Assembly (NCBI GenBank): GCA_001797335.1 | Contig: MGPE01000006.1 | Location: 62,001-126,000, forward strand | Direction: 5' to 3' | Source of the DNA: Deltaproteobacteria bacterium GWA2_38_16 | GTDB taxonomy: Bacteria > Bdellovibrionota > JACOXK01 > 2-02-FULL-40-11 | DNA length: 64,000 bases | In this document: positions 5,851 through 22,130 of the stretch, piece by piece | How the letters are laid out: each line of letters begins with the position of its first letter | Position numbering within the stretch: position 1 is the first letter of the stretch | Position numbers and translations under genes: made by a program | Notes under the pieces: generated by a model | What the model was told of the DNA's origin: nothing | The model's input: the letters and a program-made list of their open reading frames with translations, nothing else | Database searches by the model: none

Positions 5851-6474
5851 TTAAGGTTTGTAATTTTTATGGATAACTTCTAAGGCTTTTTTAGCTTCGA
5901 TATTTTCAGGGAAGTTCTCTTGTAAAGTGGTAAATTGCTCATAGGCCTCTTTCCATTTGAGTTCTGCCATCGCAATCCACCCTAGCGCTAATTGCGGAGA
6001 AACACTCCTAGGATAATCATTTTGCAGGCCACTAAAGTATTCTTTGGCCTTTATATATTTTTTCCCATAATAATAGATCCATCCCAGCTGTTCACGAGCT
6101 GCATAATTTTCATTATCAATCTTTAAAATTTCTAAATATTCTTTTTCTGCTTTCGTATAATTCGATAAAAAATAAATATAGGCCAGTCCTAACCGAGATT
6201 GGATGTCATTTGTATCTTCTTGAATTAATTCTTGAAAAAGGGCTGTACTTTCAGGATATTTTTTTTGAATACTTAAAATGGTGGCCTTTATTCTTCTCAA
6301 CTCCGTATCTTTTGGATCATATGTTAAAGCCTTTTGATAGTAAGAAAGCGCTTCCTCATATTTTCCTTCATAATAGGCTCGATCGCCTTCTTTTTTATCA
6401 TTTTTGGCTGTCGTACCTGCACATCCCCCTACCATCATTATTAAAAAACCCATTATTAAAACATTTTTATTCAT
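5851..6474 (-). CDS. TPR-repeat lipoprotein
   Basis: Exported lipoprotein with a lipobox (MMVGGCAG) about 20 residues from the chosen start and at least four TPR-like helical pairs with the Y-EGKYEEALSYYQKAL and LGWIYYYGKKYIKAKEYF signatures. The start is placed at the ATG overlapping the stop of the preceding barrel gene (TAATG); an ATG four codons upstream is also possible. It is the last gene of a three-gene envelope operon with the outer-membrane barrel and the 900-residue TPR protein. TPR lipoproteins usually scaffold protein complexes; the partner here is probably one of those two. Function unknown. Confidence 0.75.
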   Translation of the reverse strand: MNKNVLIMGFLIMMVGGCAGTTAKNDKKEGDRAYYEGKYEEALSYYQKALTYDPKDTELRRIKATILSIQKKYPESTALFQELIQEDTNDIQSRLGLAYIYFLSNYTKAEKEYLEILKIDNENYAAREQLGWIYYYGKKYIKAKEYFSGLQNDYPRSVSPQLALGWIAMAELKWKEAYEQFTTLQENFPENIEAKKALEVIHKNYKP

Positions 6475-8057
6475 TAAAAAGTCCATTTAAGGGATACCTC
6501 TGTAGAATATGCAGCATCAGGATTTTCTGAACCTACTTTTGGCGAAAATGACAAAGGATCTGTATCAATTCTATTATTATTCTCATAATAGTATCTTCCT
6601 GGTAAAAAATAGGCAGAAAGCATGGTTGCTTTCAGATTACCCCAAATCGGATAACCTAAAATCAAATTTGCTTCTGTTCCTAAATGACCGCTTAGTTTTT
6701 GATAATCACTCGTTGCAAATTGCCCATAGCCTGGATTGGGTGCCCACATATCAAAAAAATCTAAAATAAAAGTTAGATCTTTAGCTAAAGAAAAATTAAA
6801 AGATGCCTGAGTTAACAATAAATTTTCTTTTGCGGTAGGATCTGCAAAAGAATTAGGTCTTAAAACCCCTTTCATCACTCCATGGAGCCCTGCCATGGAA
6901 AGCATAGGAAATCCTCCAGAAATAGGAGTATTAATCGTATCTGCTAAATTTTCATTCCCTAAAGAATATCCACCGATATACCCTTTATTTGTTCCAATGG
7001 AATTGGTATTCCCCGTCCTGACATCATCCATAGATACATCATTCCCTGAAAAATAAAATAATTTAAAACTAGGCTGAATCCAAACTGGGGGAGTAAAAGC
7101 CAGCTTTACCGCTGTCATCCATCCTTCGTGCTCCACATTACCACCACCACCACCCGTTCCTGTATTAGAAATTTCTCCAAAATTCTTGGCCCCTTCTAAA
7201 AATAAAGTCCAATCTTTTCCTAAATATTGGACCCAACTCCCTCCCACATTTCCTACAAATTCTTTTTTAACCGTTAAATTATCAAAGAAAGCAATCAATC
7301 GTTTGCCAAGTTTGGTTCTATCCCAAAGACCACTCACCATAGCTTGAAGAACATTCGACTTCCAATAATATGAAAGATCAGTGGTAAATCGATTGGCATT
7401 GGTATGATTCGTTGCTTCATTATTTTCCATAGTCGGCCGTTTAAATTGCATCCGCCATTTGCTATTAAAGTCTGGTTTATCCCAATGGAAATTATAAACC
7501 AAAGAACTTTCTTTTAAAGGATGCGTATACGTTACTGTCGCACCATAATTGGAATCTTTAATACCAAATAGCTGGGTCGTCCAACCAATACTATAATATT
7601 TATGAAGCCCTAGGGTGGTTTTTAACCCCTTAATAAATAAGGGAGTTGTTAGGGAGAGCTCTCGCAGCCTGGGGAACATATCTTGACTTAAAATATGATA
7701 CCTTGCAATTTCTCGGGTTGTTGAAATATCGACCTTAGCTAAGTTGGCTGCATATCCCAATCGTCCTTTTCTCTCCGCCATTCCATGAAGTACAATATCA
7801 CCATAGCCCAGGGGGAGTCCTGAATAAATAAGATCTACATTACCCATGTATTGCGCAGCAGGAAAAAACTCATCATCTCCTTTATCTTGATTTAAATCGA
7901 TGACATTATTGAGATAGTTTTGAATAAGTTCAACAGAGCCATCCGTTTCCGCTTTAAAATTATTTTTAGAGAAAATAATCTTTCGAGCTAAAACCTCTGG
8001 TGAGAACAAAAAACCGACAACAAAAATCCCTACGAATAGTTTTGAAAAATGGTGCAT
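6474..8057 (-). CDS. Predicted outer-membrane beta-barrel protein
   Basis: Exported 527-residue protein. A signal peptide (residues about 1-24, ending EVLA|RK) is followed by alternating aromatic/polar beta-strand patterns throughout (for example YYSIGWTTQLFGI, SLVYNFHWDKPDF) and it ends in the C-terminal aromatic signature EVSLKWTF expected of outer-membrane barrels recognised by BamA. A Gly-rich loop (TGTGGGGGNVEHEG) lies mid-protein. I do not recognise a specific porin family. It is sandwiched between two TPR proteins on the same strand, 34 bases after one and overlapping the other, which suggests an envelope transport or assembly complex. Confidence 0.65.
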   Translation of the reverse strand: MHHFSKLFVGIFVVGFLFSPEVLARKIIFSKNNFKAETDGSVELIQNYLNNVIDLNQDKGDDEFFPAAQYMGNVDLIYSGLPLGYGDIVLHGMAERKGRLGYAANLAKVDISTTREIARYHILSQDMFPRLRELSLTTPLFIKGLKTTLGLHKYYSIGWTTQLFGIKDSNYGATVTYTHPLKESSLVYNFHWDKPDFNSKWRMQFKRPTMENNEATNHTNANRFTTDLSYYWKSNVLQAMVSGLWDRTKLGKRLIAFFDNLTVKKEFVGNVGGSWVQYLGKDWTLFLEGAKNFGEISNTGTGGGGGNVEHEGWMTAVKLAFTPPVWIQPSFKLFYFSGNDVSMDDVRTGNTNSIGTNKGYIGGYSLGNENLADTINTPISGGFPMLSMAGLHGVMKGVLRPNSFADPTAKENLLLTQASFNFSLAKDLTFILDFFDMWAPNPGYGQFATSDYQKLSGHLGTEANLILGYPIWGNLKATMLSAYFLPGRYYYENNNRIDTDPLSFSPKVGSENPDAAYSTEVSLKWTF

Positions 8058-8091: not shown

Positions 8092-10854
8092 TCAAGACTT
8101 TTTTGCTGGAATCGACGCTAACCCTCGCTTGGGAGAAGCATACATGGGCGCCAACGATAAGGCTTTATTGAACGCTTCTTTGGCCTTTGAGTAATCCTTT
8201 AATTTTAAATAATTCCACCCCAAACCATCATAAGGATCAGCATAGATATCGTTAGAAGCATGTAGATCTACCAATTCTTGAAATGCCTGAATAGAGTTTT
8301 CATTCTGGCCACTAAAATAATAGCTCCAGGCCAATGCTGAAAGGACCACACTCTTTTTCCCCCAGATTTTTTCTGAGTCTTTGAGCTCACGAGCTACCTT
8401 GGAAAGCGTTTGAGAAGCCTTGGTATACGTTCCCATGTAATACTGAACGAGCCCCAGTCCCCGTTGAACTTCCACATCATCTGGATTATGCACCAAGGCC
8501 AAATTAAAATATTTTTCTGCTTCAAGATAATAGAAGGAATTTAGATACCCCCATCCAGAAATGGCAAATACATCACTCCAGTCTGTATGTTCTTCAAGCA
8601 TCGCTTGATAATCTGGCAAGTTTGAAATGACAGAGGATAAGTTTACGGCTTTGAGCATTTGTTCATGGGCTTTTTCCGGTTGATTCAGTTTAAAATAGGT
8701 AAGGGCTAATCCTCCTTGAGCTTCTGGAAGTAGTGGATATTGCTCCATAAACTTTTTAAAATGTTTCAACGCTTGATCAAATTTACCCGCCCTAAAAGAT
8801 GCCCAACTTAAATACCCTTGCCCTTCAGATGAAAGCGGGTATTGAGAAGAAAATTTTTCCAAATAAGGCACCGCTTCAGCATATTGACCTAAGATATAGT
8901 GAGCAAAGCCAATACCCCTTAATGTCATGGGGTCATTGGGCCTGACCGCTAATACTTTTTCTTTAAAGATGCTCAGTGCCTTTTGAGTTTGTCCCAAGGA
9001 ATAATAACACCACGCAATTCCAGCATGAGCTCTCCATTTTTCAGATTCTGGCAATTTATTTAAAACCGCCATAAACCGCCCTTGGGCTTTTTGAATATAG
9101 CCAATATTATACCAATACCAAGCTTCATTCACCTGAATAAAATTTTTATTAATTTTAGATAGCCCGAGCTGTGCTTCATAATGACCCGGTAAGAGAAGTA
9201 GACACTTATCAAATTCATCTGCCGCTCGAGTAAAATCATTTTTACCAAAATACGCCCATCCTAGGCCATTCTTAGCATCGGCAAGAAGTGGATAGTCTTT
9301 GGCCAACGCTTCAAAATGAGTAATGGCATTTTGAAAATCTTTTTTCTTGTGATACGCCCACCCTAGCCCCCTCACAGCTTCCAAAGAATTATAAATTTTT
9401 CTGGACTCATTAAAAGCATTAATGGCTTCATTATATTGAGCTTTATTATAATGAGACCACCCCAAAGAATTTAAGGCTTCTACTTTTTCATCTTTGGTAA
9501 TGGATTGCTGCAAAAACTCATTTAATAAAGAAATGGCTTGATCATTTTTAGCAAGCTGCCAGCTGGTATAGGCACGCCCTTTTAAATTAAATTTGTCATG
9601 CCCATTACCTGCCATTTCAAAATGAGTCATCGCTTTTTTATAGTCTGCCTTATAATAAAATGCCCATCCAATATCGTTATTCACAGCTTTCCAATCTTTT
9701 TGTTCTGTTAACATTTGTTTAAACAAAGGCCCATCCACATACCAAGGATAAAGATTGACCGCCCTCGCAAAACTTTCTTTCGCTTTTGTAAAATTTTTAC
9801 CCTCATAGAAACAGAGAGTTAGTCCAAAATGCGCATCGGCTATCAAAGGATAATTTATGGTTAAAAAAGAAAATTCCTGAATGGCATTTTGATAGTCTTT
9901 TTTATTATAGTAACTCCAAGCAATATTAATGATGGCATCCGTATCTCCTGGAACTTCTTCAAGATACCTTTTTAATTGAGTAATGGCTTTATCAAATTGC
10001 TTCATTTTAAATTCACAAAATGCCATCCCTTTACGAGCGTAGGCTGTATTGGCATTTTGATCCAAGGCACTCATGAAATTCTGCTTCGCTTTGGCAAAAT
10101 CTCCAAGCCAATACTGAGACCAAGCTAATCCTAAATGAACTCTCCACAGTTCCCCTTTAGGAACTCTTTTCGTTGTATTTTGTAAAATTGCATTAAATTG
10201 ATTCACCGCCACTTTGTAACTTCCAATATTGAGCTGATACCAAGCCTTATAAATAGGCTCTAACGCCACATTTTGCGCTTGATAACTTTTAATAGCTCCA
10301 ATGGTAGATAAGCCAATATCAGCCCCTGCATATTTGGGATCGTGCTTTTTAATTTCTTGAAATTCTTGTTTTGCTTGGGGCAATTTTCCCATCGCCACAA
10401 AGGCTAGCCCCAATCCATGGCGAGAAGCCACCCAGTCGGGATGCTCTTTGGTCACTTCTTTTAAAGTTTTAATGGCATCATTATAGTAGCCTAAAAGATA
10501 ATAGCTCCACCCTAAGAGAGATTTTCCATTTCCATCAACATCAAACTCTCCTTCTACACCAGGAAGGGTGATTTTTTCGTGAATGGTTTCAAAAGTTGGA
10601 CTTATTTTTTGAGCCGCTTTAATGTGATAAACAGCATCCCAATAGCGACCTAATTTAAATTCTGCATAGGCCATCCCCACCAGGGCATCTGGGTTATTTT
10701 GGGGAGACTTTTTAAAGCTGGCCATAGCATCAACAAACTTTTTAGAATGATAATTTTCCCATCCTTGTTGAACCGCATTGTCTTTTTCAGCCCTGAGTGA
10801 AAATGATAAAAAACTCACCACGATAACTACCCATAAGATTCGATATAATTTCAT
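8092..10854 (-). CDS. Large periplasmic TPR-array protein
   Basis: About 920 residues, almost entirely TPR repeats (recurring W-YY-GY--AI and A--GLG-AY motifs) after an N-terminal signal sequence (LYRILWVVIVVSFLSFSLRA). The start is set at the ATG preceded by AAGGAGG five bases upstream, rather than an ATG seven codons earlier with no RBS. The protein contains an internal super-repeat: an AWYQLNIGSYK/WRVHLGLAWSQYWLG block near residue 205 recurs as AWYWYNIGYIQ/WRAHAGIAWCYYSLG near 580. First gene of the operon with the barrel and TPR lipoprotein. This resembles a split version of TPR-plus-barrel polysaccharide exporters such as PgaA/BcsC, but no synthase is nearby, so that is only a suggestion. 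Confidence 0.75.
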   Translation of the reverse strand: MKLYRILWVVIVVSFLSFSLRAEKDNAVQQGWENYHSKKFVDAMASFKKSPQNNPDALVGMAYAEFKLGRYWDAVYHIKAAQKISPTFETIHEKITLPGVEGEFDVDGNGKSLLGWSYYLLGYYNDAIKTLKEVTKEHPDWVASRHGLGLAFVAMGKLPQAKQEFQEIKKHDPKYAGADIGLSTIGAIKSYQAQNVALEPIYKAWYQLNIGSYKVAVNQFNAILQNTTKRVPKGELWRVHLGLAWSQYWLGDFAKAKQNFMSALDQNANTAYARKGMAFCEFKMKQFDKAITQLKRYLEEVPGDTDAIINIAWSYYNKKDYQNAIQEFSFLTINYPLIADAHFGLTLCFYEGKNFTKAKESFARAVNLYPWYVDGPLFKQMLTEQKDWKAVNNDIGWAFYYKADYKKAMTHFEMAGNGHDKFNLKGRAYTSWQLAKNDQAISLLNEFLQQSITKDEKVEALNSLGWSHYNKAQYNEAINAFNESRKIYNSLEAVRGLGWAYHKKKDFQNAITHFEALAKDYPLLADAKNGLGWAYFGKNDFTRAADEFDKCLLLLPGHYEAQLGLSKINKNFIQVNEAWYWYNIGYIQKAQGRFMAVLNKLPESEKWRAHAGIAWCYYSLGQTQKALSIFKEKVLAVRPNDPMTLRGIGFAHYILGQYAEAVPYLEKFSSQYPLSSEGQGYLSWASFRAGKFDQALKHFKKFMEQYPLLPEAQGGLALTYFKLNQPEKAHEQMLKAVNLSSVISNLPDYQAMLEEHTDWSDVFAISGWGYLNSFYYLEAEKYFNLALVHNPDDVEVQRGLGLVQYYMGTYTKASQTLSKVARELKDSEKIWGKKSVVLSALAWSYYFSGQNENSIQAFQELVDLHASNDIYADPYDGLGWNYLKLKDYSKAKEAFNKALSLAPMYASPKRGLASIPAKKS

Positions 10855-10938
10855 ATTGCCTCCTTGTACCCACACTCATCGGATATATTTTTTGAAACTT
10901 TAGTAAAAACAGCCTAAAGATTATCGCCCATTTTCCGA

Positions 10939-10960
10939 TATAATACTTAAAGAAAGGATA
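10939..10960 (+). promoter_or_regulatory. -10 box and RBS of the PqqD/ATP-grasp operon
   Basis: A perfect TATAAT lies 21 bases before the first ATG, followed by AAAGGA as ribosome-binding site. The -35 region is not obvious. The 90-base gap is shared with the divergent TPR-array gene. Confidence 0.45.
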
Positions 10961-10965
10961 AACCC

Positions 10966-11334
10966 ATGCCAAACATGAATGATCCCCAAAAAACTTCTTC
11001 TAGTCAGCAAGTAGAACGATACTTTGATCAATTTGCATTTTTAGATAGCAAACGCCATCTTTCCTTAGATATTCCTAAGCATCTTAAGATAGAGCTTTAT
11101 AAAGAAGAAGGTGGTTTTATCTTTGATAGCAATAATGGCCTTATTTATACCATAAATCAGGTAGCCGCTTTTATCCTCTCTCTCATCATCCATAAAAAAG
11201 GACAATATGGATTAAATGATATTACCCAGTTTTTGAAAACCACTTTTGATGTCACTGATCAAGAAGCTCAAGATGATATTATTGAATTTTTTTGCCATTT
11301 AAAAGACTTTGGAATGGAGGTCATCGCTGAATGA
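10966..11334 (+). CDS. PqqD-like small protein (peptide-chaperone fold)
   Basis: A 122-residue protein whose second half follows the PqqD pattern: a beta hairpin (GGFIFDSNNGLIYTINQVAAFIL) and a helical wing (YGLNDITQFLKTTF, then TDQEAQDDIIEFFCHLKDFGM). PqqD-type domains (RREs) bind precursor peptides and present them to modifying enzymes in RiPP pathways; related domains also occur in surface-polysaccharide gene sets. It heads a seven-gene operon and overlaps the following ATP-grasp gene by ATGA. An N-terminal extension of about 40 polar residues precedes the domain. No obvious precursor peptide lies within the operon, so the bound substrate is unknown. Confidence 0.65.
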   Translation: MPNMNDPQKTSSSQQVERYFDQFAFLDSKRHLSLDIPKHLKIELYKEEGGFIFDSNNGLIYTINQVAAFILSLIIHKKGQYGLNDITQFLKTTFDVTDQEAQDDIIEFFCHLKDFGMEVIAE

Positions 11335-12407
11335 ATCATCCTATTCACGTCGCTATTACAGGACTCCAAATGATGGACAATCCCTATCCCGGAGTTAGTG
11401 TTGCCCGAAGTCTTAAGGAAAGTCCCAGTTTTTCTGGAAAAATCATCGGCCTTTCGTATGATCTTCACTGTACAGGAAATTTCTCTCCCTATTTTGATGA
11501 CATTTTTTTAACCCCTTTCCCCTGGGATTCAGAAACACAGTGGCTTAATAGAATTGCCCAAATTCATCAAAAAATTCGGCTCGATGTCATTATCCCAACC
11601 CTGGATTCTGAAATAGCTCTTTTTTCTAAAATGTCTTTAACGTTAGAAAAAATGGGAATTAAAACATTCTTACCTTCTGAAATGTCTGTTAAAGCCCGAG
11701 CTAAAAATTTTTTACCCGAATGGTGCAAAACTCATCAAATTATTAAAACCCCCAAAACCATGGTGGTAGTTAATAAAAGTGAAATCGCTAAAATTGTAGG
11801 TACCGTAGGATATCCCTGCCTCATTAAAGGAGCTCTGGCCGATGCTTATATTGCTTATGATATCTATGAAGCCAGCGTTTTTTTTGACCGAATCTATTAT
11901 GGCTGGGGACTACCCGTCATTATTCAAGAATGTATTAAAGGAGATGATTTTGACGTTGTCGCTCTCGCTGGGAAAGATAGTACCCTCATTGGTGCTACCG
12001 CTATTAAAAAATTGGCCATTACCGATCAAGGAAAATGCGCCATTGCCAGTATTGTCAATGACGAACAATTATTTACCCTTACTCAAAAAATTGCTCACGC
12101 TTTAAAATGGGTAGGCCCGTTTGAAGTAGAAATGGTTTATGACGGCTTTAATAAAGAATTTTATTTGATTGAAATTAATGCACGGTTTCCCGCATGGATT
12201 TATTTAACAGCAAAAGCCAATTATAATTTACCTGAAAAACTAGTTCAGCTGGCCATGGGAGAAAATGTCTCTCCACTGCCTCCCTGTCAGAGTGAGCTTC
12301 TTTTTACACGCACCAAAGAAGATTATTTTTTTGAAGTTAATGCCTATAGCAAACTGGCTGCAACAGGAGAACTAAAAAAAGGAGATCTTCTCTGTGAAAA
12401 CTTATAA
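11331..12407 (+). CDS. ATP-grasp ligase (carbamoyl-phosphate-synthase-like)
   Basis: A 358-residue ATP-grasp enzyme. A pre-ATP-grasp Rossmann-like domain (HVAITGLQ, DVIIPTLDSEIAL) is followed by the nucleotide-binding subdomain with GYPCLIKGA (ATP-contacting Lys about residue 165) and metal-binding residues in GPFEVEMVY and YLIEINARFPAW. Such enzymes join a carboxylate to an amine, thiol or similar nucleophile through an acyl phosphate. The metal ligands are intact, so it is probably active. It overlaps its neighbours on both sides, and its downstream neighbour is a paralog. The substrate cannot be read from sequence; an amino acid or peptide ligation is plausible given the PqqD and decarboxylase neighbours. 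Confidence 0.75.
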   Translation: MNHPIHVAITGLQMMDNPYPGVSVARSLKESPSFSGKIIGLSYDLHCTGNFSPYFDDIFLTPFPWDSETQWLNRIAQIHQKIRLDVIIPTLDSEIALFSKMSLTLEKMGIKTFLPSEMSVKARAKNFLPEWCKTHQIIKTPKTMVVVNKSEIAKIVGTVGYPCLIKGALADAYIAYDIYEASVFFDRIYYGWGLPVIIQECIKGDDFDVVALAGKDSTLIGATAIKKLAITDQGKCAIASIVNDEQLFTLTQKIAHALKWVGPFEVEMVYDGFNKEFYLIEINARFPAWIYLTAKANYNLPEKLVQLAMGENVSPLPPCQSELLFTRTKEDYFFEVNAYSKLAATGELKKGDLLCENL

Positions 12408-13467
12408 TATTGCCATTACTGGATTTCATGCTACCTGTGAACCCACTGCGGCACAACACATTGCCCATAGTCTTAAAACCTCTAGCCGATTTGGAAATTC
12501 TAAACTCATTGCTTTAAATTACGATATCAACTGCGGAGGAAATTTTAATCCAACCAGCATTGATGAAGTATATGTGCTTCCCTCTCCCTTCGATAACGAA
12601 GATCGCTTTTACCACGCCCTGGTTAACATTCTTAAAAAAGCCAAAATTGATATTTTGATTCCAACGATGGATTTTGAACTTTCTTTATTCCCTCAATTTA
12701 AAGAACGCCTTTTAAAAGAGGGGGTAGATGTCATGATTGTCCTGCCTCAACAATATTATTTTCATAATAAACAAAAATTGTATCGCTTTTGCGAATCTCA
12801 AAAAATTCCTATGCCTTGGACAGTAGAAGTTATTAATCGCTATACCATTGATTATTATTCCCCCTATTTTATTTATCCACTTTTACTTAAAAACTCTAAG
12901 GGCCAAGAAATTTTTTGCTGCACATTAGAAGAGGTGTATGTTTTTTACCGTCGCCTTTTACGAGAACCCGCTAGCACCATTTATCTCCAAAACACTATCG
13001 GCGGTGAATTCTACAGTGCATGTCTTTTGTTCGGAAAATCTTCAGAAATTTTAGGAAAAATTATTGTTAAAAGAATTCTTGTAGCTCCCAATGGAGAAAC
13101 CTGGGGAGTATTAACCGTCACCGCTCCCCCTTTACAAGCAGTTTTAGATAATCTTCTTTTTAAATTGGGGATTACCTATGAAGGGCCCCTTGAAATTAAA
13201 TTTAAAAGAATTATAGGTACCGATATTTTTTATATTACCGATCTTAAAACACAATTTCCAACGTGGGTGCATCTGGCCACCAAAGCAGGACAAAATCTTG
13301 TGGAAACATATCTAAAATTTATTTTGGGAGAATCTGTAGAAAAATTGGCTCCCTATCAACCCGGCATGATGCTTATTAAAAGCGCGTACGATCAGGTATC
13401 CCCCACAAATAATTTAGGAAAACTCATTATGAAAGGAGAAATGACCTATGACAAAAAAGCAGCCTAG
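12394..13467 (+). CDS. ATP-grasp paralog with degraded metal site
   Basis: A 357-residue paralog of the preceding protein: the openings align (NIAITGFHAT...SLKTS and the YDI-C-GNF block), as do the PTMDFELSLFPQ and AGQNLVE regions. The metal-binding block IEINARF of the first copy reads ITDLKTQF here (E to D, N to K, R to Q), and EVEM reads EIKF (E to K). Two metal ligands are therefore non-conservatively changed, suggesting loss of catalysis and perhaps a regulatory or substrate-binding partner of the active copy. ATP-contacting Lys in YPLLLKN is kept. It overlaps the previous gene by 14 bases and the next by 20, so the set should be made stoichiometrically. Confidence 0.7.
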   Translation: MKTYNIAITGFHATCEPTAAQHIAHSLKTSSRFGNSKLIALNYDINCGGNFNPTSIDEVYVLPSPFDNEDRFYHALVNILKKAKIDILIPTMDFELSLFPQFKERLLKEGVDVMIVLPQQYYFHNKQKLYRFCESQKIPMPWTVEVINRYTIDYYSPYFIYPLLLKNSKGQEIFCCTLEEVYVFYRRLLREPASTIYLQNTIGGEFYSACLLFGKSSEILGKIIVKRILVAPNGETWGVLTVTAPPLQAVLDNLLFKLGITYEGPLEIKFKRIIGTDIFYITDLKTQFPTWVHLATKAGQNLVETYLKFILGESVEKLAPYQPGMMLIKSAYDQVSPTNNLGKLIMKGEMTYDKKAA

Positions 13468-14848
13468 TGATTTGCAAAAATATGAAAAACCTACCATTCA
13501 GCTTTTTTCTTTGCAAAATACAAGTCCTTATGAAGGGGTAAAATATAATGACGCTCTTCCCCAAGAAATTGATGGTGTTAATATTTTTACCATGCTTCAA
13601 AATTATGGGTCTCCTCTCTTTGTGATTTCTGAAAAAACATTACGAGAAAATTACAGATACATGGCTCAAACTTTTCAAAAACACTATGAAAAAACACACA
13701 TCAGCTATTCCTATAAAACCAATTATCTGTCTACGATTTGCGCTATTTTAAAAGAAGAAGGTGCCTGGTCAGAAGTTGTAAGCGGTATGGAATATGACAT
13801 GGCCGAGCGACTGGGGGTTCCTGGAAATAATATCATTTTTAATGGCTGCTATAAAAAACCTCATGAACTTTTAAAAGCGGCGTTAGGAAATACGCTCATT
13901 AACATTGATTCTCATGATGAAGCCATTCAATTAGAAAAAATTGCTTTAAAACTTAAAAAGAAAATTCCCGTTGGTATCCGAATTAATATGCGTCTTTCCA
14001 ATATGCCCTGGAATAAATTCGGTTTTAATTTGGAATCTGGCCAAGCCTATGAAATGTGTAAACGTATTTACACCTCTCAACTTCTAGAAGTACGTGGCAT
14101 TCATGCTCATATTGGAACCTATATTGCAGATCCTTTTTTGTATACGCAAGCTACTCGAGCTCTCGTACGATTTGCCCAATTTATCGAAGAGCAATGCAAT
14201 TTTAAAATTGAATATTTTGATTTAGGGGGAGGATTTCCTTCTCCCAATACCCTTCAGCAACAATTCCTACCTGCATCGTATCTCATCCCAAATATCGAAG
14301 AATATGCAAAAGCCATCTGTGGCCCTTTGAAAGAGTTCAAATCTCGTCATGGGATTAAACCAACGTTATTTTTGGAACCTGGACGAGCTCTTGTGGATAG
14401 CGCCATGACCTGTCTTACAACCGTGGTGGCCCATAAAACCATTGCTCAGAGTGTTCAAGGCATCATTATTGATACGGGAGTCAATATTCTTCCCACAGCC
14501 TATTGGTACGATCATGATATTTCCTGCGCGACAAAGAGTGCGATGTCCAGACAAGACACTGTTATTTTTGGGCCTCTTTGCATGCAAATTGATGTGGTAA
14601 GAAAGTATATTAAACTTCCTCCTCTTCAACGCGGAGATATTTTAATTATTAAAAATACGGGGGCTTATAACACTACTCAATCCATGCAGTTTATTTATAC
14701 ACGACCGGCCATCGTCCTTATTCATGACGGCCAAGTAGAAGTGGTTAAAAAAGCCGAAACCCTAGATGACATTCAACGCTTAGAAGAACTTCCCGAACGA
14801 TTAAAAAACAATGTCATGCCGTTTCAAAAAGAGAAAAAAGCAGCCTAA
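13448..14848 (+). CDS. PLP-dependent decarboxylase, LysA/ornithine-type (fold III)
   Basis: A 466-residue fold-type III PLP enzyme of the diaminopimelate/ornithine/arginine decarboxylase group. Visible landmarks are the PLP lysine in SYSYKTNY (K90), HAHIG, the phosphate-binding FDLGGGFPSP (about 257), EPGRAL (about 309), and the C-terminal GPLCMQID and NTGAYN blocks. The usual C-x-S-D substrate motif is altered (C-M-Q-I-D), so the preferred amino acid may differ from meso-diaminopimelate. It lies in an operon with ATP-grasp ligases and a urea-transporter homologue rather than lysine genes. Its likely role is making an amine or modified amino acid as building block; a racemase activity is less likely. 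Confidence 0.8.
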   Translation: MTKKQPSDLQKYEKPTIQLFSLQNTSPYEGVKYNDALPQEIDGVNIFTMLQNYGSPLFVISEKTLRENYRYMAQTFQKHYEKTHISYSYKTNYLSTICAILKEEGAWSEVVSGMEYDMAERLGVPGNNIIFNGCYKKPHELLKAALGNTLINIDSHDEAIQLEKIALKLKKKIPVGIRINMRLSNMPWNKFGFNLESGQAYEMCKRIYTSQLLEVRGIHAHIGTYIADPFLYTQATRALVRFAQFIEEQCNFKIEYFDLGGGFPSPNTLQQQFLPASYLIPNIEEYAKAICGPLKEFKSRHGIKPTLFLEPGRALVDSAMTCLTTVVAHKTIAQSVQGIIIDTGVNILPTAYWYDHDISCATKSAMSRQDTVIFGPLCMQIDVVRKYIKLPPLQRGDILIIKNTGAYNTTQSMQFIYTRPAIVLIHDGQVEVVKKAETLDDIQRLEELPERLKNNVMPFQKEKKAA

Positions 14849-15934
14849 ATGAAACCAGATTTTTTAGATTTTAACCATTATGAACAATCTGTGTGGAGTA
14901 ATCCTCTGATCCGCTTTATCGACACTATCCTAAGAGGGATGGCCCAAATGTTATTTTGCTACCACCCTATTTCTGGACTTTTATTTTTAATTGGAACTTT
15001 CGCCCTCTCTCCAGTAGCAGGAATGTATTCGCTACTAGGTCTCATGATAGCCACACTTACCGCTCGATTTTTAAAATGCAATCCTTACCTTATTAACATT
15101 GGTATTTATGGATATAATGCCGCTCTTTTAGGAATATATTGGATTTTTTTTGACACTTTTTCCATTTCTCTTCTTTTTTTATTTATCGGCATGTGTATTC
15201 TAACCGTTTTTTTAGAGCACTTCTTCTTAGTAAAAGTATCTTCTAGCCGATGGGGACTTCCGGCCATTAGTTTTCCCTCACTTTTTTCGATGTGGATAGG
15301 GGTTAGTCTTGCCTATCTTTTTAAACTCGTTCCCTATCCCATTTCTATTGATAGGTTAGAAGTCACCACCATTAATTTTTTTGCAAATCCAGATTATGAA
15401 CTTTTAGGAACCTACTTATGGGATCATCTGGGAGGAATTATTCTTATTGCCATGGGGATTCTTTATAATTCTAGAATTAGTTTTTTCTTTACAGCCATTT
15501 CTTTTACTCTAGCCACCGTCATTTCTCTTTTTTTAGGAGGGAATTCTTTACCTTACTGGAATGATATTTATTACAATTTAGTTCCTATGAGCATTGCTCT
15601 TGGAGGATTTTATTTTGTGTTTAATAAACACATCATTTTTTATACTTTTTTAGCCATGATCCTAACTACCACTTTGTTTTACGGTATGCACAATTTCTTT
15701 CATTCCTTTGGATTTCCTACCTTAATCTATCCTTTTAATATGGTTGTTTTTGCCGTATTGTGTGTTTTTGCCAAAGGAAGTTTATCCTTTGAAAAATTTT
15801 TTAATGCTTATCGAGTCCCTCTGATCGTATGTAAAAGACCCGAATCAATTCTTCAGTGGCACCAAGAACACATGGAGTCTTATCATTATTGGAATAACTT
15901 AAACTCCCAACAAAATAGAAAGGCGGCCGCATGA
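14849..15934 (+). CDS. Urea transporter family membrane protein
   Basis: A 361-residue protein with about ten hydrophobic segments and two homologous halves. The NIGIYGYNAALLGIYW and ISLFLGGNSLPYW areas resemble the urea-channel selectivity-filter regions, and the WDHLGGIILIAMGILYNSRIS segment is typical of the UT family. Members passively conduct urea or related small neutral solutes across the inner membrane. No urease or agmatinase gene is nearby, so it might export a urea-like by-product of the operon or import a substrate. It begins directly after the decarboxylase stop and overlaps the sirtuin start (ATGA). Confidence 0.75.
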   Translation: MKPDFLDFNHYEQSVWSNPLIRFIDTILRGMAQMLFCYHPISGLLFLIGTFALSPVAGMYSLLGLMIATLTARFLKCNPYLINIGIYGYNAALLGIYWIFFDTFSISLLFLFIGMCILTVFLEHFFLVKVSSSRWGLPAISFPSLFSMWIGVSLAYLFKLVPYPISIDRLEVTTINFFANPDYELLGTYLWDHLGGIILIAMGILYNSRISFFFTAISFTLATVISLFLGGNSLPYWNDIYYNLVPMSIALGGFYFVFNKHIIFYTFLAMILTTTLFYGMHNFFHSFGFPTLIYPFNMVVFAVLCVFAKGSLSFEKFFNAYRVPLIVCKRPESILQWHQEHMESYHYWNNLNSQQNRKAAA

Positions 15935-16743
15935 ATAATGATACTTTAAATACCATTATAAATCTTATATTAAAATCACAAAACATTGTTTTTCTCACGG
16001 GCTCTGGAGTAAGCACGACTTCGGGCATCCCTGATTACCGAGGGAAAACCAGTGCTTATTGGAAAAAATATGAGGGCAATGAATATAACTATCAAAATTT
16101 TTTAAGAAGTGAAAATTCCAGACAAAAATATTGGGAAATGAGCGCAGATTTTTTTAATATGATTCAAAAAGCAACCCCTTCAATAGCTCACAAGGCTCTG
16201 GCCGAGCTTGAAAAATGTGGTGCTTTGCAATCTATCATCACTCAAAATGTCGATGGCTTACATCAAAAAGCAGGAAATCTTCCTGCCAATATTTTAGAAA
16301 TTCATGGAACCATTCATCATGTTATTTGTTTGGATTGTTCCACCGTCTATCAGAGTAAAGACATCTATGGAAGAATTCAAAAAGGGATTAAGGTTCCCTA
16401 CTGTGATTATTGTCGAGGAATCTTAAAACCAGCGGTCATTGATTTTGGACAACCGCTTCCAAAAGCCCAAATGGCAAAAGCGTTAAAAAGAACTCTAGAC
16501 TGTGACCTTTTTATTGCTGTTGGATCTTCTCTCATTATTCAACCGGCTGCCACCCTTCCCATTATTGCAAAAGAACACCAAAAAACCGTGGTTATTATCA
16601 ATGACATGTCCACGGTCTGTGACCAATATGCCAATCACATTATCCATGGCGAATGCGGTGATATTTTATCTAAGATGGTAAGTGAATTAAAACAAAAACG
16701 TCCCGTTCAAGAACCTTCTTTTGTCTATAGTCAAACTGGCTGA
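15931..16743 (+). CDS. Sir2-family NAD-dependent deacylase
   Basis: A 270-residue sirtuin with GSGVSTTSGIPDYRG (NAD pocket, about 29-43), TQNVDGLHQKAG (about 107-118), catalytic His in EIHGTIHH (about 124), a zinc-binding Cys4 (CLDC, then CDYC) and GSSLIIQPAATLP. All core residues are present, so activity is expected: removal of acyl groups from lysine with NAD consumption. Inside this operon it may reverse an acylation of a pathway enzyme or of the product itself. It overlaps the transporter gene by four bases and adjoins the DUF1624 gene. Confidence 0.9.
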   Translation: MNNDTLNTIINLILKSQNIVFLTGSGVSTTSGIPDYRGKTSAYWKKYEGNEYNYQNFLRSENSRQKYWEMSADFFNMIQKATPSIAHKALAELEKCGALQSIITQNVDGLHQKAGNLPANILEIHGTIHHVICLDCSTVYQSKDIYGRIQKGIKVPYCDYCRGILKPAVIDFGQPLPKAQMAKALKRTLDCDLFIAVGSSLIIQPAATLPIIAKEHQKTVVIINDMSTVCDQYANHIIHGECGDILSKMVSELKQKRPVQEPSFVYSQTG

Positions 16744-17834
16744 TGACCTCTCATCGACATATCTCTCTTGATGCCTTACGGGGTCTAGTCGTCGTTTTGA
16801 TGGCCTTGGATCACGTTCAATTTTTTTGGTTTTCTTTTGGACTCCCTAACGATGGCCTTCATGGACTTATTCCCCAATATCTGTCTTCTTTTCATCAACT
16901 AACTCGATTTTTAAGTCATCTCTGTGCTCCTACTTTTCTTTTTTTAGCAGGCATGATGGTTGCTTGGAAAAAAGATCCAAAACATATTTTTATTCGAGGG
17001 ATAATCCTCATTTTCTTGCAATTTACATTGGAAAATATTGCCTGGTGGCCCAAAGGATATATTGAAAACAAAGGATATGCATATTTTGGAATTCTTTCAT
17101 GCTTAGGGGTTGGCATGTGCATGTTGGCGCTTTTGTCTTCTGTAAGGCCCCTATTTATATTTATCATAAGCATATTCATTTTCTTCCTCTCCCAGGCCAT
17201 AGTAAATCCAATGGTTCCTAATGCCCATCCCTTCTTACAGGGATTGGCCATCATTTTCTATGTACCCACATTAGAGAAATTTTATCCTATGACATCCTTA
17301 TTTACGGTTATCCCCTGGGTGGGATTTATGGGCATTGGATATTATATAGGCACAAAAACATTAAACCATCCTTTATACCTTTATAAAAAAACATTTGGGA
17401 TCGTGGGGCTTATACTTATTATCACCTCTAGCGTACTTCGTTATATGAATGGTTTTGGAAACACCCTTCACTGGTATGGAAGTCCTTTTGGATCAGATTT
17501 TTTTATTCTCTCCAAGTACCCACCCAGTCTTGTATTTAGTGGATTTATCCTGGGAATAATGTTTTTAATTTGGGCCCTTTTTATACACACTGAATCAAAA
17601 TTCAGCCGATGGAACCCTCTCGTTGTTTTTGGACAGGTGGCCTTATTCTTTTATCTCGTACATCTCTATCTTTATGGATTAGGGGCTTACATCGTAGGGC
17701 ACACTGTGGGGCTTACTCATCTCTCACACATCTGGGGTATTTGGTTTTTGGGACTTATCCCTCTTTATTTTCTCTGTGCTTTCTATAGAAATCTAAAAAC
17801 TACTTCTCCAACTACTTGGATAAGGTATATATAA
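16743..17834 (+). CDS. DUF1624/HGSNAT-like multi-pass membrane protein
   Basis: A 363-residue inner-membrane protein with about ten transmembrane helices. It opens with RHISLDALRGLVVVLMALDHVQFFW, the signature N-terminus of the heparan-alpha-glucosaminide N-acetyltransferase-like (DUF1624) family, related to membrane acyltransferases; the His in ALDH fits the proposed catalytic position. These proteins move acyl groups across the membrane onto an external acceptor. As last gene of the operon it may acylate the pathway product at or outside the membrane, which would pair logically with the deacylase upstream. Its 3' end overlaps the convergent lipoprotein gene by 23 bases. Confidence 0.75.
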   Translation: MTSHRHISLDALRGLVVVLMALDHVQFFWFSFGLPNDGLHGLIPQYLSSFHQLTRFLSHLCAPTFLFLAGMMVAWKKDPKHIFIRGIILIFLQFTLENIAWWPKGYIENKGYAYFGILSCLGVGMCMLALLSSVRPLFIFIISIFIFFLSQAIVNPMVPNAHPFLQGLAIIFYVPTLEKFYPMTSLFTVIPWVGFMGIGYYIGTKTLNHPLYLYKKTFGIVGLILIITSSVLRYMNGFGNTLHWYGSPFGSDFFILSKYPPSLVFSGFILGIMFLIWALFIHTESKFSRWNPLVVFGQVALFFYLVHLYLYGLGAYIVGHTVGLTHLSHIWGIWFLGLIPLYFLCAFYRNLKTTSPTTWIRYI

Positions 17835-18703: not shown

Positions 18704-20071
18704 CTATCCCCAAAATGTCAAAATCACTCCCTTTAAACATAAAAAAATTAAAAGAAGTGAAAGAAAAGATATCCCATACTTGAGAGCCCGGGTAAAAACA
18801 GTAGGTTTATCCGTATAGTCAGAAATCACATAGTGCATATCGAGTTCTAAGAGAGGATTTAAATTAATTAACCCAATCACGTAGGAACACAGCGCCACTA
18901 TCCAACAATTTACACAACCAGTTATCCCTCCTATCCATGCAAAAACGGCTGAAAACACAAAGTGGCTATAAGGACCTGAGAGAGACACCACCATTCTGGG
19001 CCATTTGGGTAAAAGCCACATATCTGATGTATCGACAAACACCATGGGACTTATCCAATGCCACCCAAACCCCATGCCATACACTTTTCGACCATAGCTT
19101 TTGGTTGCAAAAGCATGCGCCATCTCGTGGATCAAAAATGAAAGCAGCACTCCCCCAAAAACGATGGGAAGGGAAAAAGACGCATTTTCTTTTAGAAGAT
19201 CCATCATAGATTTCCAGCGCAGAATAAATATCCCTATCCCACTGATTGAAAACAAGGTTAAGACCACAAACGCTTTCGTCGTAAAAAAAATCTTAAAACC
19301 AGAATTATAAATTTTAGTGAGTATAGGGTCCACATTTTTAAAAATAACCGTTGCCGTAAGACATCTTTTAATCCCTAGCATTATTTTTTGAAGCCAGCTC
19401 ATTCGAAAAGCAATGGCTGTTACATCTTTTTTTAAAAACCGCTTCTTTAAAAAACCTTTCGCTTCTAGCCCAGCGATAACATCGGCAATTTGATGGGGGG
19501 CAAAGGTCTTAAATTTAGCCAGATATTCTAAAGTTAAATCTTTCAAATGATGTTTTCCGTCTAAAAGTTGCCAAATAAACCATCCTTCAGAAGACAGTCG
19601 ATAGTAGGCCTGTGTCAGGGGATTTTTTAAAATCGTCATCGTACGTCCCTCTTCTAGATATTGCTCTACATCGACATTGGAGAGTCTCTTGGGGCGACTT
19701 CTTAGAGTGAGTAATTCGATAATCTGACTTGAAATTGTGTTATCAAAACCCAATAATTCTAATAACTCTTTGCGCTTTAAAATAATAACGGTGGATTTTT
19801 CCACTGTTTTTACAGAGGCATTCCGAGGGGCACCGGTTAAGAGAGCCGCTTCTCCAAACACACTTCCGGGACCGAGCGTTGCCAATACTCTATCGTTTGA
19901 AACTTCGCGAAGGATAACTTCAACACTTCCACTTAAAAGAACATAGCACACATCTCCCCGCTCATTTTGCCGGATAATTTCAATATGGGCAGGAAATGTT
20001 TTTTGTTCAAGTCGCTCTAAAAAAGAGTGAGAGGCCTGCTTTAAAATCTCAGGAAGAGGAGAAAGAATCAC
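18704..20071 (-). CDS. cNMP-binding / PqqD-like / M50 protease fusion
   Basis: A 455-residue three-domain protein. Residues about 10-110 are a cyclic-nucleotide-binding domain (GDVCYVLLSGSVEVI, GSVFGEAALLTGAPRNASV). About 145-212 resembles PqqD (TILKNPLTQAYYRLSSEG, then a helical wing). From about 230 comes a membrane-embedded M50 site-2 protease with zinc motif HEMAH (316-320) and NLNPLLELD (third ligand D412). The GTG start overlaps the stop of the 66-residue NHLP-like gene (GTGA), so the two are coupled. A plausible reading is that the PqqD domain recruits the small protein, the metalloprotease cleaves it at the membrane, and a nucleotide controls the process. Arrangement and domains are visible; the pathway is inference. 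Confidence 0.8.
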   Translation of the reverse strand: MILSPLPEILKQASHSFLERLEQKTFPAHIEIIRQNERGDVCYVLLSGSVEVILREVSNDRVLATLGPGSVFGEAALLTGAPRNASVKTVEKSTVIILKRKELLELLGFDNTISSQIIELLTLRSRPKRLSNVDVEQYLEEGRTMTILKNPLTQAYYRLSSEGWFIWQLLDGKHHLKDLTLEYLAKFKTFAPHQIADVIAGLEAKGFLKKRFLKKDVTAIAFRMSWLQKIMLGIKRCLTATVIFKNVDPILTKIYNSGFKIFFTTKAFVVLTLFSISGIGIFILRWKSMMDLLKENASFSLPIVFGGVLLSFLIHEMAHAFATKSYGRKVYGMGFGWHWISPMVFVDTSDMWLLPKWPRMVVSLSGPYSHFVFSAVFAWIGGITGCVNCWIVALCSYVIGLINLNPLLELDMHYVISDYTDKPTVFTRALKYGISFLSLLLIFLCLKGVILTFWG

Positions 20072-20268
20072 GCGCCTTTATTAATACGTGATTTTAACTC
20101 TTCATCGGATAAGGACCAATCAACGTGATTTAATAAATCCATTTCTTCTTTGGTAAGCCGAATGCCGCTCGTTTGAACAGCACTCTTTGGATCTTTTCGA
20201 ATCAGCTCTCTAAATTTTTTGTCATTAATCCATTTATCAATCAATTTCCCCACTTCTTGCATACCCAT
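20068..20268 (-). CDS. NHLP-clan-like 66-residue peptide, copy 1
   Basis: A small acidic/basic helical protein without cysteines. Its pattern (KLIDKWINDKKFRELIRKDP, then LTKEEMDLLNHVDW and SDEELKSRI) matches the nitrile-hydratase-alpha/Os1348-type NHLP leader family: a short helix, an F-x-x-L-x-x-DP turn and an LT-x-E-E helix. In that clan such domains are leader peptides of RiPPs. Here no extended core follows; the chain stops 14 residues after the last leader motif. The RBS AAAGGAG is well placed and translation is coupled to the PqqD-M50 gene. It could alternatively be a regulatory subunit or anti-toxin-like partner of the protease. Confidence 0.7.
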   Translation of the reverse strand: MGMQEVGKLIDKWINDKKFRELIRKDPKSAVQTSGIRLTKEEMDLLNHVDWSLSDEELKSRINKGA

Positions 20269-20432: not shown

Positions 20433-21794
20433 CTAAATATTTTTGAGAATTTCTCTCCATCGAAAAATCAAATAAAACGGAATAGAAAGAAGTCGATATT
20501 GTAACTTTGTGCCGGTTGGCAACGTTACCAGATGACTTTCAACTTTAAGCGCCGCTTGGTTATAAAAACGAACTCCAATAGTGTAAGAGCTCCTTGAAAG
20601 AAATTGGTGAAGCGATTTAAGCGAACCATGGCTACCTGATTTAACCTCGATGGGAATAAGTTCATTTTCAAAGGGAACCAAAAAATCAAGCTCTGAAGAA
20701 CTCCCCTTTTCTTCACGAATCCAAAAAAATAATGTATTACGATTATAAAAATCACATGCCAATAATTCCTGCCCCACAAATGTTTCTAATAATCCCCCTT
20801 GATAAAAGGGATCAATAAGCTGCGCATGAATTTGCTTTTGAGCTATATGAAGAGATTCTGTACAAAGTCCTACATCAAGAAAAATTGCTTTTGGTGCTGC
20901 TTTTGGTTTTCTAACCAGCGGAGGTTGTGTTTGTGTAGTTGGAAAAATTCTTTCTACAAGCATGGCCTCATGCAAAATATCAAATGCTCTTGAAATCTCT
21001 TTTGAACGAACTTCAGATCCTGCTAGTTTTGAATATGTAATCCTTTTCCCAATTTCAAAGGGAACTCGATCCCAAACCAATTTCAGGTGCTCAGTCTCTG
21101 CCCCCTTCGAATATTTTGCGAAATCTTCTTTAAATGAGGAGACCAATATTTCATGGCATTGTTTCACAGTAATAAAACTTCCATTTTTTATATATTCATT
21201 GACAGCCTCCGGCATCCCACCCACAACCATATAATCCGAAAGTAAGCCTACAAGCTTATCATGCACAGGTCGGGGCAAGGAGCTTCCAATCTTAAGCTCC
21301 ATTAATGATTGAAGAAGAATCTCTTCACCATTCACTAATAAAAACTCGTCAAAAGTAAGTGGGTATAAATAAAGAAACTCTACTCTTCCCACAGGAAAGG
21401 ACCAACCTTCACTTCTCATACGCACTTCCAAAAGTGAACCAGCACCAATCACATGAAGATTGGGTAATTCTTCATAAAAATAACGCAGTAATTTTATGGC
21501 AACTTCAGAATTTTGGATCTCATCCAGGAAGAGAAGGGTTTTTTTCGGAATAACCCTCTTATTTGAAACTCCTTCAATGCTTTTGACAACTTCTTTTATA
21601 TCTTGAACCTCAGAAAATATTTTTCGGTTGGCGTCCTTTTCTAGATTTAACTCAATAAAATTTTCAAATTGACGCCCAAGATTTCTGACCAGTGTTGTCT
21701 TGCCTGTTTGTCTAGCCCCACGGAAGATAAGAGGTTTTCGAATTTCTTTGTTTTTCCACTTTTGTAGTTCTTGATCAGATTTTCTTACAAACAT
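20433..21794 (-). CDS. DUF4143 AAA ATPase with PD-(D/E)XK-like tail (1)
   Basis: A 453-residue ATPase of the AAA_14/DUF4143 family. Walker A is GARQTGKT (about 26-33), Walker B LLFLDEIQN (about 88-96), then a sensor region GAGSLLEVRM, a DUF4143 winged-helix middle and a C-terminal restriction-like core with SELDFLVPF and IPIEVKSG. The family is common and scattered in bacteria and archaea but has no settled function; a role in defence or selfish DNA has been considered because of the nuclease-like end. The gene lies between two copies of the NHLP cassette. Its promoter places the transcript start at the ATG (leaderless) and includes a repeated palindrome. Confidence 0.85.
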   Translation of the reverse strand: MFVRKSDQELQKWKNKEIRKPLIFRGARQTGKTTLVRNLGRQFENFIELNLEKDANRKIFSEVQDIKEVVKSIEGVSNKRVIPKKTLLFLDEIQNSEVAIKLLRYFYEELPNLHVIGAGSLLEVRMRSEGWSFPVGRVEFLYLYPLTFDEFLLVNGEEILLQSLMELKIGSSLPRPVHDKLVGLLSDYMVVGGMPEAVNEYIKNGSFITVKQCHEILVSSFKEDFAKYSKGAETEHLKLVWDRVPFEIGKRITYSKLAGSEVRSKEISRAFDILHEAMLVERIFPTTQTQPPLVRKPKAAPKAIFLDVGLCTESLHIAQKQIHAQLIDPFYQGGLLETFVGQELLACDFYNRNTLFFWIREEKGSSSELDFLVPFENELIPIEVKSGSHGSLKSLHQFLSRSSYTIGVRFYNQAALKVESHLVTLPTGTKLQYRLLSIPFYLIFRWREILKNI

Positions 21795-21863: not shown

Positions 21864-21933
21864 GCCTATCCCCAAAATGTCAAAAAGAGTGAGAGGCCTG
21901 CTTTAAAATCTCAGGAAGAGGGGGAGCAATCAC
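21864..21933 (-). pseudogene. Remnant of a second cNMP/PqqD/M50 gene
   Basis: Only the two ends of a duplicated protease gene remain. The start side encodes VIAPPLPEILKQASHSF and then hits a stop; it matches the first 17 codons of the intact gene apart from two substitutions. This is joined directly to the last 20 or so bases of the intact gene (matching 18702-18723). The junction lies in an AAAA run shared by both ends. About 1.3 kb has therefore been lost in a single deletion. Confidence 0.8.
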
Positions 21934-22130
21934 ATACCTTTATTAATACGTGATTTTAATTCTTCATCAGAAAGAGTCCAATCGACATGACTTAACAAAT
22001 CCCATTCTTCTTTGGTCAACTTAATCTCACTATTTTGAACTGCATTTTTAGGATCTTTTCGAATGAGTTCTCTAAATTTTTTGTCATTAATCCATTTATC
22101 GATCAATTTTCCTACTTCTTGCATCCCCAT
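21930..22130 (-). CDS. NHLP-clan-like 66-residue peptide, copy 2
   Basis: Same length as copy 1, with identical residues 1-28 and eight substitutions overall (S29N, T33N, G35E, R37K, M43W, N47S, S52T, A66M). The RBS AAGGAGA is seven bases before the ATG and the promoter hexamers are conserved, so the gene should be expressed. Its own coupled protease gene has been reduced to a stub, so the product would have to be handled by the intact copy. The stop still overlaps the GTG of the stub. Substitutions cluster in the second half, as expected if the N-terminus is a recognition element. Confidence 0.7.
   Translation of the reverse strand: MGMQEVGKLIDKWINDKKFRELIRKDPKNAVQNSEIKLTKEEWDLLSHVDWTLSDEELKSRINKGM

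Follow-up and report, generated by a model that had tools for sequence, protein, structure and literature searches.

What does a seven-gene operon that places a PqqD-type protein beside ATP-grasp enzymes and a decarboxylase make, and how do its proteins work together? The operon occupies positions 10966–17834 of a 64,000-nucleotide stretch of contig MGPE01000006.1 (the window, from a host genome of 2.0 Mb labeled G000). Seven open reading frames (ORFs) lie on one strand, and at each of the six internal junctions the neighboring genes overlap or abut, by 4, 14, 20, 0 (abutting), 4, and 1 bases in gene order. The initial annotation had described a coupled set made as a unit, and this description stands, with six internal junctions rather than seven. 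Its family calls are confirmed above the Pfam cut-offs for six of the proteins (PqqD, ATP-grasp 1, decarboxylase, UT, SIR2, and HGSNAT_cat); the second ATP-grasp protein is recognized weakly and is degenerate. The window operon is a divergent local variant of a tight, apparently unnamed cluster that is common to many phyla. The cluster probably links two small molecules before a decarboxylation step. A dedicated ligate-then-decarboxylate pathway, with the decarboxylase docked by a RiPP recognition element (RRE)–leader pair, is favored with modest confidence (RiPP, ribosomally synthesized and post-translationally modified peptide).

An ATP-grasp profile search of 84,980 species genomes returned at least 581 stretches, at least 528 of which encode a relative. 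The best 80 of these encoded relatives were read. Their loci are labeled from about fourteen phyla, including Campylobacterota, Aquificota, Verrucomicrobiota/Lentisphaerota, Planctomycetota, Pseudomonadota, Cyanobacteria, Elusimicrobiota, Ignavibacteria, Gemmatimonadota, Thermodesulfobacteria, WOR-3, and Bdellovibrionota, among others; some labels of metagenome-assembled genomes (MAGs) in this set are surely misbinned. A contig labeled Klebsiella pneumoniae (L111) also bears the operon-type ATP-grasp and is most likely a mislabeled bin.

Three architectures were found. Type A comprises the window and G007, a genome of the same class and another family, and reads PqqD–ATP-grasp ligase 1 (AG1)–ATP-grasp 2 (AG2)–decarboxylase–urea-transporter-fold protein (UT)–sirtuin, without an M23 domain. 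The G007 locus has a contig break within AG1; its gene order is identical and it is accompanied by the same divergent trio of genes. Type B reads PqqD–AG–decarboxylase, followed by a UT+M23 fusion of ~695 aa and an outer-membrane protein. In type C the AG and the decarboxylase form a single protein, followed by a ~220-aa protein, UT, and often an outer-membrane protein, and PqqD is absent. Relative to type B, the window variant is without M23 and carries in addition the degenerate AG2, the sirtuin, and the DUF1624 protein. The decarboxylase is the last gene in the operons of Persephonella and relative MAGs (L138, L142, and L163); L138 and L163, the two with enough downstream sequence, have no UT-M23. 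Closer to the window genome, the five same-family genomes gave no match. A close AG1 homologue is present in 11 of 368 genomes of the phylum, and a further set holds a different form.

Retention was counted using profile searches over 88 loci, with testable loci as denominators. PqqD is retained in 86/86, the decarboxylase in 81/81, and UT in 67/69; an outer-membrane or tetratricopeptide repeat (TPR) protein accompanies 52 of 62. Beyond the core clusters, no further neighbor recurs in more than 12 loci. The neighborhood comparison proposed in the initial annotation has thus found the core kept in nearly every locus, the opposite of genes that are not retained together. The pairwise distances of the four core proteins are correlated across 50 loci (Mantel r of 0.79–0.91, with 0/999 permutations as high). 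Since this correlation includes shared species history, it demonstrates common inheritance rather than direct coevolution. No plasmid-borne AG homologues were detected at E 1e-30.

The initial annotation had recognized no characterized pathway, and this remains so. No NCBIfam equivalog was obtained above cut-off for the window core proteins, and a literature search for the gene combination returned no relevant paper. In a type B operon a single cut-off was narrowly passed, that of the PqqD model TIGR04353, which belongs to a different system. The best 80 of the at least 528 relatives, labeled from about fourteen phyla, nearly all form one tight operon, so that chemistry common among bacteria seems undescribed. 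If the proposed pathway is correct, the operon opens a route to an unknown metabolite.

The carboxylate ligation and decarboxylation chemistry predicted initially is supported. The decarboxylase keeps PLP (pyridoxal 5'-phosphate) Lys90, H219xH221, GGG260–262, E310/R313, C378, and Y407 (window numbering). The PLP lysine, HxHxG, GGG, ExGR, and the catalytic Cys and Tyr are invariant in an alignment of 62 sequences (61 of type B and the window). The signature of LysA is replaced in 62/62: the Arg of the RPxLY helix is F, Y, or P, and the CESxD loop is CM[NQ]ID. The same genome holds a separate canonical LysA with RPTLY and CESGD. The LysA equivalog TIGR01048 gives 243.7 bits against a cut-off of 297.9. 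The initial proposal of basic amino acid decarboxylation is not supported: the enzyme lacks both the Asp that serves free basic amino acids and the Arg/Glu that serve diaminopimelate. Judged from these residues, the enzyme is neither LysA nor a decarboxylase of free basic amino acids.

The closest characterized enzyme is FigC, which was identified by PDB sequence (7kh2, E 2.6e-67) and is also the best NCBIfam match (N-citrylornithine decarboxylase). FigC is likewise the best Foldseek match of a decarboxylase homologue (4e-39). In the VIA-align comparison, whose rows span the decarboxylase part only and carry no information on PqqD, FigC (Z 43.3, rmsd (root-mean-square deviation) 2.3, 401 aligned) is tied with LysA (42.6, rmsd 2.0, 381 aligned). 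T327, T330, and Y331 of the FigC specificity helix replace the Asp of ornithine, arginine, and carboxyspermidine decarboxylases, and the same positions replace Arg343 of diaminopimelate decarboxylase (PMC7857480). In a sequence alignment these residues correspond to T350, W353, and Y354 of the window enzyme, which are invariant or nearly so across the 62 sequences. The FigC loop CMQHD resembles the CM[NQ]ID of the family. Besides diaminopimelate and D-ornithine decarboxylases, the FigC clade contains SbnH, AcsE, MccE, and BtrK, and most of these four take a ligated or conjugated amino acid as substrate (PMC7857480). From the FigC-like active-site signature, the FigC clade, and the ligase–decarboxylase fusions of type C, we infer a conjugated substrate for the operon decarboxylase.

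In the rhizoferrin system of Francisella (FigC/FslC with FigA/FslA), the fold, the neutral specificity helix, the C-M-x-x-D loop, and ligation before decarboxylation are shared with the proposed pathway. The kinship of the two enzymes and the outer-membrane proteins at many loci could point to a rhizoferrin-like citrate siderophore, with N-citrylornithine as the decarboxylase substrate and the outer-membrane protein as receptor. This assignment is very unlikely. The rhizoferrin ligase is a NIS (nonribosomal peptide synthetase-independent siderophore) synthetase whereas the operon ligase is an ATP-grasp enzyme, and neither a NIS synthetase nor a TonB-receptor domain was found in the Pfam-scanned operon proteins. 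The position of FigC Thr330 is Trp in 62/62 decarboxylases, and the curated FslC cut-off is missed. To judge from the PDB sequence alignment, FigC has neither the YxxP tail nor the PqqD partner described below. The butirosin side chain is likewise built by an ATP-grasp ligase and an alanine-racemase-fold decarboxylase acting on a tethered amino acid. In that system BtrJ is the ATP-grasp ligase and BtrI is the carrier protein. The alanine-racemase-fold decarboxylase that acts on the tethered amino acid is BtrK (PMC8503589). In contrast to butirosin, the operon is without an acyl carrier protein and has PqqD and a leader-like tail instead.

The motif YxxPx[ILVMF] is present 41–44 residues before the fold in 80/80 type A/B decarboxylases whose upstream sequence is long enough, and a typical tail reads YEKPVIxKLxxGxMNKFG. 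Discrete lasso-peptide RREs bind the leader motif [Y/W]xxPx[L/V/I/F/A]; in the RRE cleft an Asp hydrogen-bonds the Tyr, an Asn fixes the Pro, and a Phe divides the cleft (PMC13381572). Five cleft positions are conserved in the operon PqqD consensus, namely Asn, Asp, Phe(+4), Leu(+8), and Leu/Met(+13); in a comparison by eye they correspond to N33, D70, F74, M78, and L83 of LppB. The window PqqD also keeps the YxxP-cleft positions (YTIN...DIIEFFCHLKDFGM). In the PDB the type B PqqD matches by sequence only TfuB1 (6jx3), a lasso RRE whose structure was determined together with the leader. Where PqqD might have been absent, ORF calling had overlooked copies that were then found immediately upstream of the AG. 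Neither PqqD nor YxxP was found in the seven type C AG–decarboxylase fusions. In a small control, the motif occurs in none of the nine LysA sequences that extend far enough upstream.

Structure prediction was carried out for L097, where PqqD and the decarboxylase share a reading frame, so that the DNA can be read through as a single chain with stops as Gly; the paired rows were taken from other same-frame loci. In the L097 decarboxylase alone, AlphaFold leaves residues 1–28 unstructured, without a strand and with a pLDDT (predicted local distance difference test) of 59 and then 47 per ten-residue block. In the read-through chain the meaningless linker of ~340 residues has a pLDDT of ~25 and PqqD of 71–86. 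The tail block rises to 79, and a new strand appears at 430–433, directly after YxxPx. Its partner would be PqqD residues 22–25. In published RRE–leader complexes the RRE sheet is continued by the residues that follow the motif (PMC13381572). PqqD is predicted, with high confidence, to dock the decarboxylase tail. The RRE–leader pairing of these two proteins is the best-supported new point, and it suggests that a peptide-tagging device has been reused to dock a metabolic enzyme.

The PqqD fold and the YxxPx[LIV] recognition motif are shared with the discrete lasso RREs (TfuB1/FusB1 and TbiB1) and LppB. Unlike the lasso systems, the operon carries the motif on a metabolic enzyme rather than a short precursor, and it encodes neither a cyclase nor a leader peptidase. 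Since a PqqD protein usually acts in a RiPP pathway and precursors can be unlinked, a RiPP pathway with a short precursor encoded elsewhere was considered; the decarboxylase motif would then be a decoy or a regulatory mimic. Small ORFs with YxxP in the locus flanks are not enriched (113 observed and 104 expected from shuffling). The motif is universal on the decarboxylase and is lost together with PqqD, and no lasso cyclase, leader peptidase or other protease, or other RiPP enzyme was found among the recurrent neighbors. An unlinked precursor is accordingly quite improbable. With no precursor enriched nearby and the leader-like motif on the decarboxylase itself, the peptide natural product suggested in the initial annotation is unsupported. 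If the docking prediction is correct, reading a PqqD gene as evidence for a RiPP would mislead genome miners at many loci. The operon offers a clean test of RRE–leader recognition outside peptide natural products, through a PqqD of 78 residues, a short motif, and natural fusions that have neither.

A lysine in the same tail raises a further alternative. All 61 of the type B sequences have Lys20 (L097 numbering), 14–15 residues after the Tyr and within K-[FYH]-G, in a part of the tail that AlphaFold leaves disordered. The tail could then be a RiPP-like substrate or carrier: PqqD would bind the YxxP leader, AG1 would charge this lysine through the side-chain carboxylate of an amino acid, and decarboxylation would follow in cis, much as BtrJ, BtrI, and BtrK work with a carrier protein. 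The combination of RRE, leader, and ATP-grasp has RiPP-like logic. Type C keeps GKxGP in the AG–decarboxylase linker (6/7). In type A, by eye, a K-Y-[GN] lies about five residues further on (K-Y-N with Lys32 in the window, K-Y-G in G007); Lys32 is a possible counterpart of the type B lysine, displaced by an insertion. An ATP-grasp ligase is coupled to a carrier protein in LysW/LysX-ArgX, where the carrier is the C-terminal Glu of a small zinc protein. That likeness bears only on the carrier alternative; the LysW system is without an RRE and without a decarboxylase. The shift of the type A lysine counts against a charged tail, and an invariant lysine may also be a contact residue. The tail lysine may, speculatively, be a substrate attachment point; a tail charged by AG1 is unlikely on balance. 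Slightly less likely again is the full cycle, in which an amino acid is loaded on the lysine of a leader–core carrier inside the metabolic enzyme, decarboxylated in cis, released, and exported. If true, it would place a RiPP leader–core device across many phyla.

The ligase AG1 keeps the EINxRFPAW block and all of the ATP/Mg positions (Lys, Glu, Asn, and Arg). The second copy is recognized through PylC-like_N, just under the Pfam cut-off, and through PRK12767 models (E 7e-16, far below cut-offs). In the phylum search AG2 occurs only in G000 and G007. Several catalytic positions are lost or changed in both copies (E267 to K/T, N283 to K, K235 to E/H, and K227 to R/D), and AG2 is therefore probably a noncatalytic partner.

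In the docked ligate-then-decarboxylate pathway, AG1 would activate a carboxylate at the expense of ATP and join it to an amine, as its family suggests, giving a conjugate with a free α-amino acid end. The PLP enzyme would then strip the α-carboxylate of this conjugate, as do FigC, SbnH, and BtrK. Ligation before decarboxylation is the likelier order. PqqD would bind the YxxP tail and hold the decarboxylase in a pathway complex, presumably at AG1, and would not serve a peptide antibiotic. In type C, the fusion of ligase and decarboxylase would replace this docking, consistent with the joint loss of motif and PqqD. The UT-fold protein would serve as inner-membrane transporter for a small product or intermediate, with envelope proteins handling it further. 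In the window variant AG2 would probably pair with AG1, and the sirtuin and acyltransferase may tailor or regulate. Several points weigh against the docked pathway. The FslC model NF041039 gives 259.4 bits against a cut-off of 500. The AlphaFold chain is an artificial read-through with an inferred strand partner. The tail could instead be a substrate that PqqD delivers to AG1. Only linkage ties the UT, M23, and envelope proteins to the chemistry.

Table. Coordinates of the operon, its tail elements, and the facing genes in the window
Feature	Coordinates	Strand	Evidence
PqqD-fold RRE protein, 122 aa	10966..11334	+	PF05402 E 5e-8, 33.5 vs 23.4 bits
ATP-grasp ligase 1 (AG1)	11331..12407	+	ATPgrasp_Ter and CPSase_L_D2 above cut-off; catalytic residues kept
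ATP-grasp 2 (AG2), degenerate copy	12394..13467	+	weak family matches; catalytic positions changed
Alanine-racemase-fold PLP decarboxylase, FigC/FslC-like	13448..14848	+	NCBIfam, PDB sequence, Foldseek of homologue
YEKPTI, lasso-leader-like RRE recognition motif, decarboxylase tail residues 12-17	13481..13498	+	YxxPx[ILVMF] family-wide
Lys32 of decarboxylase tail (V-K-Y-N)	13541..13543	+	by-eye correspondence to type B lysine
Urea-transporter-fold (UT) membrane protein without M23	14849..15934	+	PF03253 E 4e-38
Sirtuin, accessory	15931..16743	+	PF02146 E 2e-43
DUF1624/HGSNAT-like membrane acyltransferase, accessory	16743..17834	+	PF07786 E 9e-14
Divergent intergenic region, 90 bp, place for operon promoter	10876..10965	.	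sequence read
Long TPR protein, divergent; 43% identical syntenic copy in G007	8092..10875	-	
Putative outer-membrane protein (signal-like start, C-terminal Phe); 37% identical syntenic copy in G007	6474..8057	-	
TPR lipoprotein-like protein, syntenic in G007	5851..6486	-	

The UT protein matches PF03253 above cut-off (131.8 against 25 bits) and shares the fold of the bacterial urea transporters, with dvUT and UT1/UT2 as structure matches. It differs from them in missing the Yut equivalog TIGR03441 (111.1 against 274.6 bits), and the type B protein is fused to M23 in 67/67 loci holding the UT gene. The urea-transporter match is one of fold and family, with no substrate implied. Transport of the pathway product by UT is a tentative assignment, held at slightly less than even confidence. 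A search that recovered its positive controls detected no urease alpha subunit in ten carriers (the window genome and nine others), and urea nutrition is therefore unlikely. The individual Pfam families are common, and the locus might be read as a loose metabolic island for amino acid catabolism and urea uptake with an ordinary LysA-type function. This is scarcely probable in view of the tight co-retention and matching distances, the lost LysA signature beside a separate canonical LysA, and the absence of urease in the ten carriers.

In the type B UT-M23 protein (e.g., L171:10374-12446), the zinc residues H351, D360, H468, and H470 are more than 90% conserved. By analogy with known UTs, the C-terminus of the UT domain presumably faces the cytoplasm, where a peptidoglycan peptidase would be unexpected. 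A search of the window genome, run without a positive control, detected no M23 homologous to the type B domain elsewhere. In G007 a second UT paralogue (L037:5383-6867) has TPRs between its two UT halves. The conserved ~220-aa protein of type C (L041:8570-9256, L042:8675-9322, and homologues) has no Pfam or NCBIfam match; it contains a DCGVFAALAREVF block that looks transglutaminase-like by eye.

The acylation and deacylation genes noted initially are present as local additions and do not belong to the core. The sirtuin is the only SIR2 protein found in G000 and in G007, where it directly follows UT, and no SIR2 was found in four operon-less relatives. A role in anti-phage defense was considered and rejected, as only weak generic sirtuin matches were obtained. 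The DUF1624/HGSNAT protein occurs only in G000 among six genomes, with no match in G007 and four other relatives.

The divergent trio (8092-10875, 6474-8057, and 5851-6486) faces the operon across 90 bases. No operon promoter was identified in this intergenic region, where the promoter scan was unremarkable. The small TPR protein of the trio matches the type B small TPR protein with an hhalign probability of 98.9, a TPR likeness that may be generic. The outer-membrane protein of the trio has no Pfam family. No homology to the type B outer-membrane protein was detected (hhalign probability 0.5), though both accompany small TPR proteins.

The second PqqD-type domain reported initially for the next locus is present in the protein at 18704-20071 on the minus strand, where PF05402 gives E 1.9e-4 and 22.1 bits against the 23.4 cut-off. 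This locus (18704-20268 and 21930-22130, minus) combines cNMP (cyclic nucleotide monophosphate)-binding and PqqD domains with an M50-like membrane protease that is daptide HExxH-like. A 66-aa NHLP/Os17-type small protein is present twice. A 250-bp direct repeat (85%) flanks the AAA ATPase gene at 20433-21794, as if the gene had been inserted between the copies.

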